Below, piece by piece: positions 29,346 to 37,017 of a stretch of DNA of 64,000 bases. The stretch covers positions 1 to 64,000 of the forward strand of contig BGKB01000108.1 of assembly GCA_003116975.1 (NCBI GenBank), written 5' to 3'. Origin of the DNA: Aurantiochytrium sp. KH105. Its lineage: Eukaryota; Sar; Bigyra; Thraustochytrida; Thraustochytriidae. Position numbers and translations under genes: made by a program. Position 1 is the stretch's first letter; each line of letters starts with the position of its first letter. The notes below the pieces were generated by a model, which made no database searches, was not told where the DNA came from, and was given only the letters and a program-made list of their open reading frames with translations.

Positions 29346-31241
29346 TTAGGAGGCGACGAGCTGCAGCTGCTGGCTGCTGGGCGTGAATTCGCATTTGCTT
29401 GGAAAACATTGCTTGATGCGAAGGTCCGGGGCGCATTTTTTGTCAATGAGCTGGATTCGAGAAGCTGTATAGCCGCCGTGCGCCTTCATGAGTTTGGCAC
29501 AGAAAGAACAAAAAGGAGGCACAAGAGGCTGCGACTTGGAAGCGAGCGCACGCCGCAAAAGACGGTCGCACATGAGGCTGTAGTTATAGGGATCGCGCAA
29601 GTGCGGGTGATTGAACTCAGAGCACCCGTATCGCACGTTTCCTTGACAATAGCGCATGTGCGCGGGCGCTGCATTGCAAAAGGCAAAATGACGGTATGCA
29701 GCTTCGTGCGAGCAGTACTTTGGAGTGTGAAAAGACTCTACAAATCGATCGCCCGTGACCTCGTTCCAGCTGGCAGCGAGGCCTAGAATAAACATTGGAC
29801 GCTGGTTCCAGAGTTCGATCCACTTATTTGCGACGCGGCCCGAAACGCCAAGGTGGAAGGTGTAGCTCCGTCTTTCCGTGCCCTCGAACCGGCGCCACGT
29901 CAAATGTTCCGAGGACAGCTCCCACTCAAAGCTCCATGGAATCCACATGCCCCAAGGCCGCCATGATAGAGGATGCCGCGATTGCGCGAGCATGTTAGGA
30001 ACCATGGTTCGCGGAAGAATGAAGCAATCATTGCCTGGGTGGGGCGAAGCTTTGGCTGTTGCGAGCATGTATTCCAGAGACTCTCGATTTACCTCGAGCT
30101 TATTCTCATCAATACGGAGGTCCATGCGGGTGATGGTAAATGCAGAGGGACGATACGGCGCGTTTGCTGGCCGCTCGTGACGACGCGCCTGAAATTGAAG
30201 CGCTTCCTCCGTGCTCTGCGGTGAATTCCCTTGGCCCCCGGCATCCTCAAACCAGCTGCGAAGCGTTGCGGCGGACGGTGGAGACGACTGGCGAGAAGCG
30301 AGCGCTTGCCTTGTGCGATTTTGCACATAGAGGTGAGCGAGATCCTGCATGGCAAGAGGGATCAGGTCAATATCCCCGCCATGCAGCTTGTAGTAGACAC
30401 GCGCGTCATTCTGGCAGAGCAGGGGAGTGGTAATGTGTGCACCCCCCGTCTCATCAAAGGAAAGACAAAACAGAAGCAGCTCAAAGGTCTCCGCAAGCAA
30501 TTCGTCCTGGATGCTGACGCCGTCCAAGTGCGCCAGTTTCCAGGCTTGCACATAAAAGTCTTGGTGCACCCCAATGTCCGCATTGGTGTAAATTAGGTGC
30601 TTTCCCGTGCCATGATCTCTTCCGACGCGAAATATTTCGCCAACCACCGGCAGTTTGTGATGGTTAAAGGGATCGATGACCACGTCCTTTAGATCGATTT
30701 CGCGCGCGAAGGCCGGCCCTGATCCTCGGTCCTCAGAGAGAACGGCATTGATAAACTCGACGCGGATTCCCGCCTCCTGCAACGCGTATTCGGCCGCGAG
30801 CTGCCAAGAGAGACGCACAAGATCATGCTCCTTGCTGAGCTTAGAGCCAGGGCTGACGTTGAAGGAGTTGAAAACGTGCGTGAAGTGGATCTCCTCTGCA
30901 TTATTGTTGCCAGGACTTGATCCCAAGCCAAGCTCCTCTTCATCTCCATCTGCACGGTGTCCATCGTCCGCTGCTGATGCTGGTTTTATCAGCGACGCCC
31001 CCGCCCCCGCTACACTTCCCGTCGTGCTTGGTGCCCCTCGGTCGATCGTTACCGAGCGCGCCACGCTCGAGCCCTCGCCGGCGGCTTGCGGCTCGAGGAT
31101 GAGAACGTGGACCATTGAAAAGTAGAGCAAGTTGCAGCCGATGGCGGCCAGGAGCAGCGTCCTGACCACGCGCCGCGTGCACGAGCGCGCCGCGACGCTC
31201 ATCACGCGTCGCGCTCCGCGAGAACGCTCACCTCGCCGCAT
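29346..31241 (-). CDS. Type II membrane protein, possible glycosyltransferase
   Basis: A 631-residue protein with a basic N-terminus and a single hydrophobic segment at about residues 27-48, the layout of a Golgi type II membrane enzyme. A Ser/Ala/Gly-rich stem (55-110) follows. The luminal part begins T-H-V-F-N-S-F and contains L-I-Y-T-N-A-D-I-G-V-H-Q-D-F-Y, where N-A-D resembles the metal-binding acidic motif of GT-A glycosyltransferases. There are many Cys and Trp residues near the C-terminus (W-R-P-W-G-M-W-I-P-W). Glycosyltransferase is an inference from topology plus that motif; I do not recognise the family. An alternative start is Met14. It is divergent from nothing obvious; the transposon lies upstream. 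Confidence 0.65.
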   Translation of the reverse strand: MRRGERSRGARRVMSVAARSCTRRVVRTLLLAAIGCNLLYFSMVHVLILEPQAAGEGSSVARSVTIDRGAPSTTGSVAGAGASLIKPASAADDGHRADGDEEELGLGSSPGNNNAEEIHFTHVFNSFNVSPGSKLSKEHDLVRLSWQLAAEYALQEAGIRVEFINAVLSEDRGSGPAFAREIDLKDVVIDPFNHHKLPVVGEIFRVGRDHGTGKHLIYTNADIGVHQDFYVQAWKLAHLDGVSIQDELLAETFELLLFCLSFDETGGAHITTPLLCQNDARVYYKLHGGDIDLIPLAMQDLAHLYVQNRTRQALASRQSSPPSAATLRSWFEDAGGQGNSPQSTEEALQFQARRHERPANAPYRPSAFTITRMDLRIDENKLEVNRESLEYMLATAKASPHPGNDCFILPRTMVPNMLAQSRHPLSWRPWGMWIPWSFEWELSSEHLTWRRFEGTERRSYTFHLGVSGRVANKWIELWNQRPMFILGLAASWNEVTGDRFVESFHTPKYCSHEAAYRHFAFCNAAPAHMRYCQGNVRYGCSEFNHPHLRDPYNYSLMCDRLLRRALASKSQPLVPPFCSFCAKLMKAHGGYTASRIQLIDKKCAPDLRIKQCFPSKCEFTPSSQQLQLVAS

Positions 31242-32051
31242 CCATTCTCGGCCGCCGCGGCCAGAAGCGGGTCTGCAGGGACATCGACCAGCCGAGCTGC
31301 GGCCGCGGCTCCTTCATCGCGTGTCGGATTGCCTGCTTACGTGACGAGACAGGGACTGGCTGCCTGGGACCATGGGGCAACGAGGTGACCGGTGAGGCGA
31401 GAGCCTACAGTGGCTCGCCGGATCCGTTGGCGAGGCCGTTCGTCAAGACGCTCATGGTATCTTGATCGTGGCCAGGCTCGCTGGCTGGCGGCCTGGAAGG
31501 CTGGCTGTCTCGGCGGAGTAAGTTCGGGTTGGTGGGTGGGGCCGCGGCGCGGGTAGGTGGGAGGATAGAGGGCTGGTAGTGTCTCTGTCGCTGGTGGCGA
31601 ATTCGCTGGCGGCAGCGGGACATGTGCTTTTGTCCAGCCACTAATGGCGTGCGCGGGTGTTCGTTTCTAAGAGTGAGTCGAGGGACTCTTGGAATCGGAC
31701 GCCAAGCAGCTGTGCCGCAGTAACGTGAACTTGTGGATACTTGCTGAGGAGGCGGGGCCGATCGACATGGACTTACCGTGGCTTCTTCGGATGGATATCA
31801 TCGCTTTCGAAGGAGAAAATTCTGGCAAGTGAAGTGAAGATGAGCACAAATGAGAGCCTCGTGTCGTTCACGTGTCGTTCACTTTCACCCTCTCTTCAGC
31901 AACGAATCTAGTCGATTGCTGTTGCTTGAGATCAGTTATCATAAGTTTCGGATTTTTCCTCGCCGCGGCGGCACCGACCTGTGATTTCCACATGCAAATT
32001 TTGCGCAATGCTTCTGATGCTTCTGAGTCTGGAAATTTTGATAAATCTTCA
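31242..32051. other. Intergenic region between the type II protein and the transposon
   Basis: GC-rich near 31250-31640, then AT-richer toward the transposon. The boundary of the mobile element should be here. I looked for a terminal inverted repeat against 35620-36600 and found none I would defend. Confidence 0.4.
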
Positions 32052-34424
32052 TTATTTTATTGTATGTGTGCCGTGTTGCTTTTCGCCAAGAGACACATCG
32101 TTACAGTCTGTTTCGCTTGCGGTGACGATTTTGGCTGGCATAGATCTAGGATTAGCGATCTCAGGGAATGCCCGAATAAACTCTAGGGTCATGCGAAAAA
32201 GTTTTGCGCGCTTGGCTTGCCAAGGGAAGTTTTTGTCCCATTGTTTGATCTTGGTCAAGTAGCTCACCATATGGCAACGTTTTAGCTTGCCGCCTGTGTA
32301 CCCAGAAAGAGCAGCGTTTACAAAAAGTGCCGCTTTCACGAGATCCTCCTCTTCCATTGTATCCGGAACGCTCTCCGGCGTTCCAGCTGGGACTTCATCA
32401 GCGTTCTGGGACGGGTTTAGTTCGCGTGATGAGCTCGCCTCTTCTGAGACATGTTCCTCTGAGCTTGCAGAGAGGGAACGTACAAGCTCCAGCAGTTCTT
32501 GCCTGGACGGCTGAATCGGAACACGTTTCCCTGCGAGTTGTAGGACCTCCATGAGTTTTGTTCTTGTAATCTTGTCATCTCGCCCAAATTCGAACGAGGA
32601 ATTTTCATTTGCTTTTTGGAGTAAGAAAGCGCGAACACCTGCTTCTTCAACGAACTGCTTGTCGTCCTTCTCGGCTTTCTTCGCCTTGCTCACGGCCTCA
32701 TGGGACTTGTCTTGAGCCTCGATGGCTTCAAGTTGCTCGAGATCGTACATGTCCTTCGGCCGCCAGGAATCCGTTGATACACGTTCTCTGCAAAAGACGA
32801 AGTCAGCACCCCCAACGTCTTTGAACAAGACATCCAACAAACTTTTCCGCTTCTCCTGCATAGAATCATCCTGCCTTTCTCCTGCGCAGCCAGAACTCGA
32901 TATGAGCTTTCCGTAGGCCTTTTCGATGAGTGGCCTCGCATCTGCACTTCCTATTTGAATGTTGGTATAGTTGTTGATGATGGTCTGGTGACTTGTTGAT
33001 GCTGCTGCGGCCAATTCGCGCTCTTTAAGATCCTTCATCATCTTCTTCATTTCAGCAAGTAATGTGATTAACGCGGTCGCAGACTCTCCGCCATCCCCTC
33101 CTCTTACTCGCGATTCGCCTTGCGCCTCCAGCGATGGATTATCATTGGATTCCTCAAATGGTTCCTCCGTTTCATTCACGTCAGTGTCCTTTTCCTCCCA
33201 GGCCGCTGCGCGCAGCAGTTTACAAAAGTACTTGCATCTGAAAGCGAGAATTGCTTCGGTAGGCAAAGTCATTGCGCTCGTAGGAGAGTCCGAACGTGCA
33301 ACAATTTCTATACCGATGAGCGTCCGGATTCCGCAGTTGACTTGATCACGCTGTACCGCTGCTGCAAAGGTGTTGACAAAGGGCCACGTGCTTGCATCCC
33401 GGTCTATCTGCTCTTCGGGATACGCTTTAAAGGCGCGATCGTTGAGAAACCGGATGACCGCACCTTTCCATTCCTGCGCCTCGCAAGCAAGGGGGTCGAA
33501 GTACTCGAAACGACGTTCCTTCACAAATATGAAGATGACACTCCAATGTGCAGAGCTCGGATTGCAGGGGAAGCAAATGACATCGTGCTCAAGCAAACGT
33601 TTTGCTTGCTGTGCAGCCTGGTTGCTTGATCCACGTGGAGCCCGATCTTTCCCCTCATCACGTGCCCACATCGCAGCAACGTTCGTATCGACCATGACCA
33701 TGGATCGAATCGAGTTCGCGCAGATTAGTCTCCCCATGGAGTTCATGATATCGTCAGTGATCCATGCTTGATCCTTGGCATCGAGTTTGGGATCATAGAG
33801 CTTGAGGAGGCTGGTATTCGCCACAGATATGCCATAAATGTCAAATACGGTATTTTCGCCAAGATCTCGAACCTCGCCGAATATGTCGAAGGTCCGTCGA
33901 CGCTGCAACGCCCCTTTTGAGAAATCTCGAGAGAACTTGGGCGTCGTCAGGTTTTCCTGTGGCCAGTCTGTGTTCAAAGGCCACAATCCAGTACGCTGGA
34001 AACCGCTCGTGACGTAGTCTGCGTCTCCAACTGCTTGTCGAAGAGCTCTGTCAGCAAATTGAGGCACTTTAGTAAGCGAGATGGCCCCCGTTGCATTCGT
34101 TGCACGAATGAATGTTTGTTGGTATTCGCCAAATGTTCGCTTGACAGAAGCAAAAACCGACACGTCCAATGGTTGGAGCTCAGAAGGAGTGTGCGCAGGC
34201 ATGCAGATCACATGCACATGCTCATTGCGCAGATGGATCAGAGCGGGGAGGTTCTTGACAAATGAATTGTACCCGTCTATGACAAGAATGTGGTGAAGAC
34301 GGTCCTCCTTGTCTCCCCCATAGGGGGGGGGGGGAGCTTCTGATCCATTCTGTGAAAAGCTTCGACCACTCTGCAAATTTTTCGTAGTTCGTCCACCCAT
34401 CTGCAGTTCGGTGAAAGCTGGCAC
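32052..34424 (-). CDS. Transposase C-terminal half: DDE core end plus Ulp1/SENP-like C48 protease
   Basis: A 790-codon frame; real coding begins near the C run at about 34334. Residue numbers count from 34424. I-L-V-I-D-G-Y-N (D50) and P-A-H-T-P-S-E-L-Q-P-L-D-V-S-V-F (D87) are the second and third Asp of a DDE_1/pogo transposase, followed by G-F-Q-R-T-G-L-W-P-L-N. Residues ~215-410 resemble Ulp1/SENP cysteine proteases: A-H-W-S-V-I (H293), E-Y-F-D-P-L (D310) and Q-R-D-Q-V-N-C-G (Q358, C364), with the six-residue Gln-to-Cys spacing of the family. The last 380 residues are charged, with a possible SAP-like helix pair (near T-K-L-M-E-V-L-Q-L-A-G) and otherwise unknown. The frame is intact to its stop. 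Confidence 0.85.
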   Translation of the reverse strand: MPAFTELQMGGRTTKNLQSGRSFSQNGSEAPPPPYGGDKEDRLHHILVIDGYNSFVKNLPALIHLRNEHVHVICMPAHTPSELQPLDVSVFASVKRTFGEYQQTFIRATNATGAISLTKVPQFADRALRQAVGDADYVTSGFQRTGLWPLNTDWPQENLTTPKFSRDFSKGALQRRRTFDIFGEVRDLGENTVFDIYGISVANTSLLKLYDPKLDAKDQAWITDDIMNSMGRLICANSIRSMVMVDTNVAAMWARDEGKDRAPRGSSNQAAQQAKRLLEHDVICFPCNPSSAHWSVIFIFVKERRFEYFDPLACEAQEWKGAVIRFLNDRAFKAYPEEQIDRDASTWPFVNTFAAAVQRDQVNCGIRTLIGIEIVARSDSPTSAMTLPTEAILAFRCKYFCKLLRAAAWEEKDTDVNETEEPFEESNDNPSLEAQGESRVRGGDGGESATALITLLAEMKKMMKDLKERELAAAASTSHQTIINNYTNIQIGSADARPLIEKAYGKLISSSGCAGERQDDSMQEKRKSLLDVLFKDVGGADFVFCRERVSTDSWRPKDMYDLEQLEAIEAQDKSHEAVSKAKKAEKDDKQFVEEAGVRAFLLQKANENSSFEFGRDDKITRTKLMEVLQLAGKRVPIQPSRQELLELVRSLSASSEEHVSEEASSSRELNPSQNADEVPAGTPESVPDTMEEEDLVKAALFVNAALSGYTGGKLKRCHMVSYLTKIKQWDKNFPWQAKRAKLFRMTLEFIRAFPEIANPRSMPAKIVTASETDCNDVSLGEKQHGTHTIK

Positions 34425-35556
34425 CTACGGTCGCGTTAGCTTTGAGCTCCGCCAGTTTATCTTCGTTGAACGACCGAACTCCTTTGAGGATATACATCGG
34501 GGGCATGCTGTCCCCCGCGGCACTGACACAAGCCAGCATCGTCACTGTCGGTGTGTTGGGTGAAGCGTCTGTATGCGCATATCTATCACTCTTGTCGCAG
34601 ATACCGAATCGCCGACCCCATTTCGGCTGGAAAACTATCTCGTCCATATTATGCACGAGGTTTGGCCGCAGCGCATAGTCTCCGGACAGACTTTTTGCTG
34701 CTAAGATTTTCTGATTGATCGCACGCACTTCGGCGTACTTATGCTGTACCAAGTCGAACCATTCGGACGCGATATCATAGTTGAGCGTACGGTAACTCAT
34801 TGTGTCAAAATCATCGCGTCGTCGAATTCGCAAATCGGGATGACGAGCTTTGAAGGAGCTCCACCAACCATTTGTCGCTTTGAATTTGGTGTTGCTGTCC
34901 TTGAGTCTAGCGAGATCGTATGCCATCCCCTGGATATCCTTTGCGGAAAGTGGCATGCCAGTCTTGGAACATTCAGCGATAAGTTCCTTCAACTGCTGCT
35001 CAAGACTGTGCGTCAGAGCTGTTTCGTAGGGCTGAAGCCTTCCTCCATTTTTTTTGGCCTCCTCGATCAGTCTCGTGAGGGTCCACCTGTTGAATCGATA
35101 GTCGGAAGACCGAGAGTAGTGATCGATTATCCATGCAAGCGACGGTTTCACCGTACTGGAAAAGTTCCCGTTGCCGAGAGCACGATCGACTGCCTCTTGA
35201 GCGACAGCGAGATACTTTGGGTCCTTCAAGGAATTGTACTTTCCACGCCTCCGTTTTTGAGGTGTCGATGTGTCCAGCACGTTGTCCGTTTCCAGGTCGA
35301 CAGCGTCGCCCAGATTGCTAGCTTCATCGACGCAGGCCCCTGGGCACTCTGCAGTCGACGAGGGTGCATTAAAACCATCCTGCACCACTGCGTTGCTGCT
35401 CCCTTTTGGCCGACCTCGGGCTCGCTTTGCGGGCGGCTCGGCCAAAGCCAAGAGATCGGGAAACTTCGAAGCGACCTCGTCGGTTTGTTTCTCCCCCGGG
35501 CCTTCGACAGCTTCTGGCGGCGACACAAAGAAGCTCGTGATCACGCGCTGGCTCAT
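34222..35556 (-). CDS. Transposase N-terminal half: PIP box, AT-hook, HTH, first catalytic Asp
   Basis: A 444-codon frame, meaningful to about residue 408, where the homopolymer lies; the last ~36 residues are out of frame. Residues 3-10 (Q-R-V-I-T-S-F-F) fit the PCNA-interacting consensus Q-x-x-I-x-x-F-F. R47-G-R-P-K51 is an AT-hook core. K101-R-R-R-G begins a helix-turn-helix region, and G-W-W-S-S-F-K-A-R-H-P-D-L-R-I-R (230-245) is typical of CENP-B/Tc5-type DNA-binding domains. V-H-N-M-D-E-I-V-F (D305) is the first catalytic Asp of DDE_1. The start at 35556 is chosen over the Met at 35619 because it puts the PIP box at the extreme N-terminus. Confidence 0.85.
   Translation of the reverse strand: MSQRVITSFFVSPPEAVEGPGEKQTDEVASKFPDLLALAEPPAKRARGRPKGSSNAVVQDGFNAPSSTAECPGACVDEASNLGDAVDLETDNVLDTSTPQKRRRGKYNSLKDPKYLAVAQEAVDRALGNGNFSSTVKPSLAWIIDHYSRSSDYRFNRWTLTRLIEEAKKNGGRLQPYETALTHSLEQQLKELIAECSKTGMPLSAKDIQGMAYDLARLKDSNTKFKATNGWWSSFKARHPDLRIRRRDDFDTMSYRTLNYDIASEWFDLVQHKYAEVRAINQKILAAKSLSGDYALRPNLVHNMDEIVFQPKWGRRFGICDKSDRYAHTDASPNTPTVTMLACVSAAGDSMPPMYILKGVRSFNEDKLAELKANATVGASFHRTADGWTNYEKFAEWSKLFTEWIRSSPPPLWGRQGGPSSPHSCHRRVQFICQEPPRSDPSAQ
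34323..34334 (-). other. 12-base homopolymer at the transposase frame break
   Basis: Twelve consecutive G (C on the coding strand). With 11 bases the two transposase frames would be continuous. This could be a sequencing or assembly error, a real inactivating slip, or a slippery site; the sequence alone cannot tell. Confidence 0.8.
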
Positions 35557-35619
35557 CTTTCGTCGACGGAGCTGCCAACGCGCTGCGCTAGATCTTTGCT
35601 GCTCAAGCTGCGCGACCAC

Positions 35620-37017
35620 CTAACCACAACCAGGCCTAACCACCACTTGGGTTCAAGCCAACGTCCGCTCATACAAATGTATTAGCCGGACTATTTTATG
35701 GCCTATTTTTGTATAGCATACTACTATAGTAATACCGTATACAGGTTGATTTGCAACATGATTTTAGTGAGGTAAATCCTATACGATTTCTCGTAGCAAC
35801 TCTGTGTGATTTGCAAATCGGACGCTTCAACCTAACGATGGAAAGAAATCAAATGCAGAGGACTGGCATCACAAAACCCGTCTTTGCCATGGAAGATCAT
35901 GCAGAGCGGGCATAGTATAAAAACGCAAATCATTTTGAACTGGCCATTCTGACTCGGCTTGAGTCAGACGCAGAAGGCGCCCAGCGCGGGACCATATTGG
36001 GGTAAATCGACTCTTGTGCGGTTCCTAGCAAGTTGTTGTTGGATGGGTCGGATGGAGGGCGCGAATTGGACTACGTGACAATCTATCAATTGGTCTTACG
36101 ATTTGAAGTTGTTGAGAAAGGAGTTAGCAAAGCCGCAAATGGGAGATGCCCGGACATAGAGATCTTGCAAAAACGCACTTCAAAATTGGACGGAAGGCTG
36201 CGATGGTGGACGAAAGTACGTGTGTGGCCTCTCCACGCCCGTACCAAGCTTCCGTAGGATTTGCTGTGGCGTGTATGGCCTCAAGAGCAAGTTGCGGATT
36301 TTTCAATCTCGGCCTCCCTATTGTGATCGCGATGACCACATTGTGCCAGAACAAGCTCCACGGTTCGCAAACTTCGCGTGCGGTAGAGAGAGTCTGCAGA
36401 AGAGGTTGCGAACCGCATAGGAGCAGTGAAGCGAGCAAAGAACGTCTGGCTGGCCAGTGATCTCTCCTCCGCAGTTTTGGCGTCATGGGCGAGCAAAATA
36501 AATAATACAACCAAGAATAAAATTTCACTTTTCCTACGCTGGTGCTTCATGTTGTTAGAGGTAGTTTTCGAGTAGGCCTATTCCCAACGAGACCGCGAAG
36601 GTCAAGAAGAAAAGAAAAAAACCAGGCACAGCTGAGCGCTGGAGCTCAGTCAGATGAGAGGCCTTGCTTCTTCTTTTCCATTTGCTCACCCAAGGCCATG
36701 CGAGGCAACTGATCTGCGATCAAGGCTCCTCAATCAGTGGCAGAAAGATGGACCTGCTTGCTCACAAGAAACCACGCAAAAAAGCAGTCAAAGAAGGATG
36801 CCGTCTCGTCATTCTGGAGCACGCACACTCACGCACTCCTATTGCTGGTGCTGCTGGTGCTGGCTGCTTCTTTGCCGGAGGTGTCTTCCAGACCTCAAAC
36901 GACGTAAGAAGGCGCGGCGTGGCGCGGGGAGCAAAGCACGGCAAGAGGCGCGCAAGAGGCGTACACGCGGCCCAGGACACGCCGGAGACGGGCTTCGGGA
37001 CACACGCACAAGTCGCC
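35620..37017. other. AT-richer intergenic region between the transposon and the J-protein gene
   Basis: From 35690 to 36560 the sequence is visibly less GC-rich than neighbouring DNA and includes a TAGTATAAAAACG element at 35914-35926 in + orientation. There is no credible ORF; 36124-36528 and 36146-36460 oppose each other and lack motifs. Part may belong to the transposon. From 36600 it becomes the leader of the J-protein gene. Confidence 0.45.

Follow-up and report, generated by a model that had tools for sequence, protein, structure and literature searches.

Does a pogo-type transposase carry its own Ulp1/SENP-like cysteine protease? The question is raised by a locus of the thraustochytrid Aurantiochytrium sp. 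KH105, found in positions 1 to 64,000 of contig BGKB01000108.1 (assembly GCA_003116975.1); this whole stretch of 64,000 nucleotides is called the window here. Two long open frames lie on its minus strand, at 34222-35619 and 32052-34424, and a first-pass annotation made from the letters read them as a single fused element. With a probability of about 0.95, the locus holds an immobile member of a thraustochytrid lineage of cut-and-paste elements in the pogo superfamily; the protein predicted for it joins a transposase to an Ulp1/SENP-like protease. As read from sequence, four observations carry this answer: a one-frame fusion in a second copy, retention of both putative catalytic sets across two families that are ~30% identical, TA-flanked inverted repeats, and recent movement of derivatives.

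Reading frames and copies of the element

On a second contig of the same assembly, C44, 7.2 kb match the window at 92.5% and a further 2.3 kb at 91%, the flanking gene included. Because the match extends through this gene, C44 is the homeologue or allele of the locus and shares its insertion. Its copy reads as a single uninterrupted frame of 1182 amino acids, with Pfam matches to DDE_1 (5.3e-17), HTH_Tnp_Tc5 (1.4e-9) and Peptidase_C48 (C48; 2.9e-8), and is therefore not a pair of neighbouring genes. DDE_1 and HTH_Tnp_Tc5 are the only transposase domains that Pfam finds in the window and C44 protein, with no Ginger1, Mutator or CACTA core.

The catalytic residues claimed for the window were recovered where the first-pass annotation had placed them. 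The DDD core consists of D305, counted from the methionine of the upstream frame, and of D50 and D87 of the downstream frame; H293, D310, Q358 and C364 of the protease follow, with the spacing of six from Gln to Cys. Profile searches proposed at that stage matched all three families, DDE_1 being split over both frames. For C48 (PF02902) the scores are 43.8 bits in the window, 34.3 in C44, 36.7 in a more distant copy on contig C320 and 41.8 in the related thraustochytrid Hondaea fermentalgiana, against a cut-off of 20.7. The protease had also been called intact, which holds for this domain and not for the reading frame of the window as a whole, since the latter breaks once, at a 12-base homopolymer within the DDE core. 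That the break is an assembly error in this homopolymer, the window copy then encoding the whole protein, has a chance a little short of even. The frames are open on either side of the run of G, but the independent gene model of Hondaea omits residues about 278-560 of the C44 protein, and its frame may thus be broken too.

This Hondaea model, FCC1311_097042 (1364 aa), represents the same locus as the window and C44. Its identity to the C44 protein is 90% in the N-terminal part and 86% beyond about residue 557, and it carries HTH and C48 by Pfam. The model also fuses the transposase with the following same-strand gene (29346-31313 in the window), probably an annotation artefact. Protein database searches returned it as the only other fused member; eleven further hits (P0003-P0006, P0009-P0015) are pogo-like, and PF02902 is listed for none of the 11. 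Two of these searches scored the best 7996 and the best 7991 candidates, and a search with the C48 region 1110 candidates. As only the best candidates were scored and the C48-region search came without cellular SENPs, distant fused relatives may have been missed. Viral contigs gave 84 pattern matches, none of them confirmed, and searches of plasmids and of NCBIfam gave no match.

The C320 copy represents a second family. This element of 4298 bp starts with TAGGGTAGAACCT, closes with its inverse and has TA at both ends. It holds two frames in one register, separated by one TGA, whose halves match HTH_Tnp_Tc5 (5e-9), DDE_1 (6.2e-5 and 1.6e-14) and C48 (5.3e-9) in the same order as in C44. Read through the TGA, its protein is 31% identical to that of C44, and D306, D428 and D465, together with H671, D688, Q736 and C742 (C44 numbering), are invariant between the two. 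The last spacing of the DDE core in C44, from D428 to D465, is 36 residues, inside the range of 29-59 of the pogo superfamily.

DDE_1 is matched at six places in the genome, three of which (C320, C44 and the window) also have C48. The other three, on C34, C65 and C123 (the last under the curated cut-off), are more distant pogo-like frames. They are absent from the 23 C48 matches of the genome, some of which are two pieces of one gene, and from the comparison with the C48 of the element; Pfam found no C48 in the C34 frame (1066 of 1131 aa covered) or in the C123 frame. The search for further copies thus returned the same fusion in all three long copies, and none of them ends right after the transposase core with the protease as a separate host gene.

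Table 1. Features of the element in the window
Feature	Position	Strand	Basis or remark
Transposon remnant	31901..35834	-	Bounded by the degenerate 5' inverted repeat (35834) and the loss of homology with mobile relatives (31901)
Degenerate 5' terminal inverted repeat, first letters TA	35817..35834	-	4 of 18 mismatches to the repeat of mobile relatives, TAGGGTAAAACCTCCGATT
Upstream frame from its Met: N-terminal transposase part	34222..35556	-	Open reading frame
PIP-box-like motif QRVITSFF, residues 3-10	35527..35550	-	Kept in C44, Hondaea, C320, C153 and C75
HTH_Tnp_Tc5 DNA-binding domain	34828..35007	-	Pfam 3.6e-10, upstream frame
DDE_1 core, first half	34339..34545	-	Pfam 0.0073 alone, under cut-off; upstream frame
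12-G homopolymer, site of the frame change	34323..34334	+	One-base gap relative to C44
DDE_1 core, second half, with second and third Asp (DD36D)	34092..34292	-	Pfam 5.3e-9, downstream frame
Peptidase_C48 (Ulp1/SENP-like): H293, D310, Q358, C364 of the downstream frame	33225..33764	-	Pfam 3.4e-11, alignments, hhalign
C-terminal tail; 3' part common to non-autonomous copies	32055..33152	-	Sequence matches

Ends, mobility and selection

Searched against its own genome, the downstream frame of the window gave 80 matches, many of which cover just a short stretch of the C-terminal region. Twenty of the 80 matched loci were retrieved, and 18 of these (L003-L020) are C-terminal pieces. Fourteen (L006-L017, L019, L020) are non-autonomous copies of 1.17 kb whose two inverted repeats (TAGGGTAAAACCTCCGAT) are perfect and lie 1168-1171 bp apart; they are 98-100% identical and have TAGGGTAAAACCTCCGATT ends with TA. 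Copies of equal length form 56 pairs, 45 identical and 11 at 99.9%, and three copies of 1168-1169 bp are ~98% like the others over a 1037-bp core. The rest comprise a longer relative of 1408 bp (L005; C27, 1129-2536) with imperfect inverted repeats of 2-3 mismatches, two loci with one repeat and one without any. The inverted-repeat pattern occurs at 53 places (at most two mismatches), against one for the reversed pattern. An empty site on C154 corresponds to L009, the one copy whose empty-site search returned sequence spanning the junction, and shows a single TA where the element would stand. Near-identical derivatives and a single-TA empty site indicate that the lineage moved recently.

From the window element the derivative has ~880 bp of 3' sequence (~86% identity) along with short pieces of the 5' end. 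Homology ends at 31901 in alignments to L005, L006, L011, L017, L020, L024 and L026 and at 31910 for L023, the alignment to L025 falling short of this end. The 5' repeat is better kept in C44, with two mismatches in 18, than in the window, with four. No 3' repeat with up to four mismatches was found in positions 31000-36800 of the window or in the 9.5 kb of L021. The window copy is accordingly an incomplete element, with a degenerate 5' repeat and no 3' repeat found. None of the loci retrieved was found to be a full-length mobile partner whose inverted repeats are perfect; one repeat on C14 lies inside a stretch with 1062 N, and those on C310 and C93 lie near contig ends.

The window and C44 (92% DNA identity) are one of several pairs of loci, along with C153/C75, C117/C54, C34/C65 and C26/C154 (84%), which would suit a hybrid or a diploid of high heterozygosity. 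Compared between window and C44, with codons 409-415 around the break excluded, the ratio of nonsynonymous to synonymous change (dN/dS) is 0.50 (p 8e-6), with 0.45 for the transposase and 0.43 for the tail. With 197 differences, about 6.6 stops would be expected within the frames, and none is observed (P 0.001). A single base change at the last codon sets the two terminal stops apart, and P becomes 0.009 if this is counted as a stop. Five of six internal indels are multiples of three. Together, stops, indels and dN/dS imply that, over much of the period after the split, the reading frame was maintained.

Since the frame was kept despite the loss of one end, domestication is a live rival: the window and C44 would be a host gene, an immobile pogo-C48 copy held under host selection after its 3' repeat was lost. 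The two homeologues have the insertion in common, as does Hondaea to judge from its gene model, no 3' repeat was found in either homeologue, and the related pair C153/C75 evolves under still lower dN/dS. Domestication is nonetheless rather unlikely, as the window frame is broken, the C48 part is without detectable constraint and the neighbouring gene is much more constrained (0.17); moreover, the constraint may precede the loss of the repeat or reflect one haplotype only.

The C153/C75 pair consists of homeologous frames of 457 and 458 aa (L070, C153:133200-135000; L071, C75:24900-26700) related to the C320 transposase. They have a PIP-box-like motif, an HTH region and a tail-like piece, and are without DDE core and protease. 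Their dN/dS of 0.24 (p 1e-9) suggests that they encode a domesticated DNA-binding protein.

The protease and the PIP-box-like motif

The His, Asp, Gln and Cys of the protease are invariant across the window, C44 and C320, and the same motifs occur in host SENPs. The strongest C48 places of the genome are the SENP-like pair C117/C54, to which the C48 of the element is closest among the genome C48 loci compared. Aligned profile to profile with host SENPs, it gives a probability of 96.8 (E 2.1e-10); the 88 aligned columns start ahead of the His and end shortly beyond the Cys. The cellular pair shares the His-Asp-Gln-Cys set and a KE(K/R)RxEYFDxL motif with the element; its open frames are of 562-569 aa, with Pfam applied to their C48 part, and the genome search for DDE_1 has no match at these places.

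This proximity to cellular SENPs would be expected if the protease were a captured fragment of a host gene, a passenger without a role in transposition. Near-neutral dN/dS of C48 between the window and C44 points the same way, and one survey places the ULP1-like regions of plant cut-and-paste elements under transduplicated cellular gene fragments (PMC2528002). A passenger is quite unlikely all the same, since catalytic residues and position would hardly be expected to persist across two ~30% identical families and the protease stands in frame within the transposase protein. Apparent constraint on the putative protease is seen by conservation between the families only, not at the window/C44 locus. 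Lastly, two adjacent genes, a transposase and a host Ulp1, merged by the reading can be rejected, the window frame break alone speaking for them; they are contradicted by C44, which has a single frame, and by C320, which keeps the parts in that order.

Several results weigh against a fused element with a working protease. Every long copy is defective, by a frame break (window), a stop codon (C320) or a 3' repeat that was not found (window, C44). DDE_1 is not matched by Pfam in the Hondaea model, and an empty site for C320 was sought and not found. The dN/dS of C48 is 0.86 (9 synonymous and 28 nonsynonymous changes; p 0.69), indistinguishable from neutral. A sequence search of the PDB returned nothing significant (best E 0.22 and 0.07), and the entries named include SUMO proteases and a deubiquitinase/deneddylase, so that the modifier may be other than SUMO. 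An AlphaFold model of the C48 part from a two-row alignment (window and Hondaea) reaches a confidence (pLDDT) of 35 and gives the fold no structural backing; the C48 assignment therefore rests on sequence profiles.

At the extreme N-terminus of the protein, just after the Met, stands a PIP-box-like motif: QRVITSFF in the window and Hondaea, QRMITSFF in C44, QLTLSNFF in C320 and QRTLRGFF in C153/C75. The pattern Qxx[ILM]xx[FY][FY] fits all six lineage members examined and none of 14 other pogo-like proteins, eleven from the database searches and three from the genome (two of the 14, L052 and L054, lack their C-terminal ends). When the C44 protein was shuffled 5000 times, the motif arose within the first 40 aa in 0.14% and anywhere in 3.3%. 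PIP-boxes are known from Drosophila pogo, Tigger and Lemi1, where their relevance is described as unclear (PMC5371812), and the motif seen here is similar. What is new is the apparent pairing of such a motif with a protease. For the tail, the cut-out C320 sequence scores 28.7 bits with DUF4518 (cut-off 27) and 18.7 bits with Ish1 (cut-off 26.6), families that were not matched in the window or C44 tail; this hints only weakly at a SAP-like tail.

Relation to known transposons and possible role

As the first-pass annotation had noted, Ulp1-type proteases occur in some plant Mutator-like elements and in other large DNA transposons; they are known from Mutator, CACTA, Ginger1 and Crypton. Mutator-like and CACTA elements make target duplications that differ from those of pogo. 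They too are cut-and-paste elements with ULP1, in CACTA alongside Tnp2, and belong to other transposase superfamilies than pogo (PMC2528002, PMC2836005). Ginger1 likewise has a DDE transposase with Ulp1 (or OTU) C-terminal of the core in one protein, but its core is Gypsy-integrase-like; a role of Ulp1 in DNA transposons has merely been proposed (PMC2836005). CryptonF and CryptonS of oomycetes and diatoms are also stramenopile mobile elements with an Ulp1-type C48, whereas their recombinase is a tyrosine recombinase and the CryptonS peptidase sits on an additional protein (PMC3212892).

With the pogo superfamily (pogoR, Tigger, Lemi, Passer, Fot and Mover, within IS630-Tc1-mariner) the element shares HTH_Tnp_Tc5 and a DDE_1 core of the DDxD type and, in C320 and the non-autonomous relatives, short inverted repeats with TA (PMC7386202). 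Mover, of stramenopiles, Rhizaria and red algae, has the same reported spacing, DD36D; its DNA-binding motif is undetectable by hmmscan, whereas that of the present element is detectable (PMC7386202). Known pogo proteins span 300-977 aa, against 1182 aa here with C48 protease and long tail, and section 8 of that survey names no protease for pogo elements (PMC7386202). The words 'protease' and 'peptidase' are absent from the main text of two pogo surveys (PMC7325037, PMC7386202), and no report of a pogo transposase with Ulp1 was found in open-licence PubMed Central, Repbase and closed journals lying outside the search. As far as found in the literature consulted, a built-in deSUMOylation step of the kind this protein would provide is undescribed for pogo/Tc1-mariner. 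A Tc1/mariner element has been linked to SUMO through the host factor HMGXB4, which is an analogy only (PMC10138897).

Taken as a whole, the locus is best explained, at odds somewhat better than even, by a pogo lineage whose protein combines a PCNA-docking-like motif, an HTH domain, a DD36D core, a protease acting on SUMO or a similar modifier and a tail. Such a transposase could sit on PCNA at replicating or repairing DNA, bind the element ends and cut DNA with its DD36D core. The protease would then free PCNA, the transposase itself or nearby silencing or repair proteins of SUMO or a related modifier, which may favour excision, reinsertion or escape from SUMO-directed silencing. A role as deconjugase of SUMO or a related modifier is the favoured function of the putative protease. 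Its PCNA-directed version is tentative, with the odds against it, and is made more plausible by the PIP-box-like motif. It is doubtful, though conceivable, that the element, bound to the clamp by its PIP-box-like motif, edits SUMO at replication forks, on PCNA or on repair or silencing factors bound there, and so selects or safeguards its insertion, and that the host kept the immobile locus for that activity.

With this lineage, pogo would add a further superfamily to the unrelated DNA transposons that took up Ulp1-type proteases. As PCNA is a well-known SUMO substrate, the pairing of a PIP-box-like motif with the protease would give the latter a concrete target. If this holds true, transposition in these thraustochytrid elements would be tied to SUMO control at replication forks.

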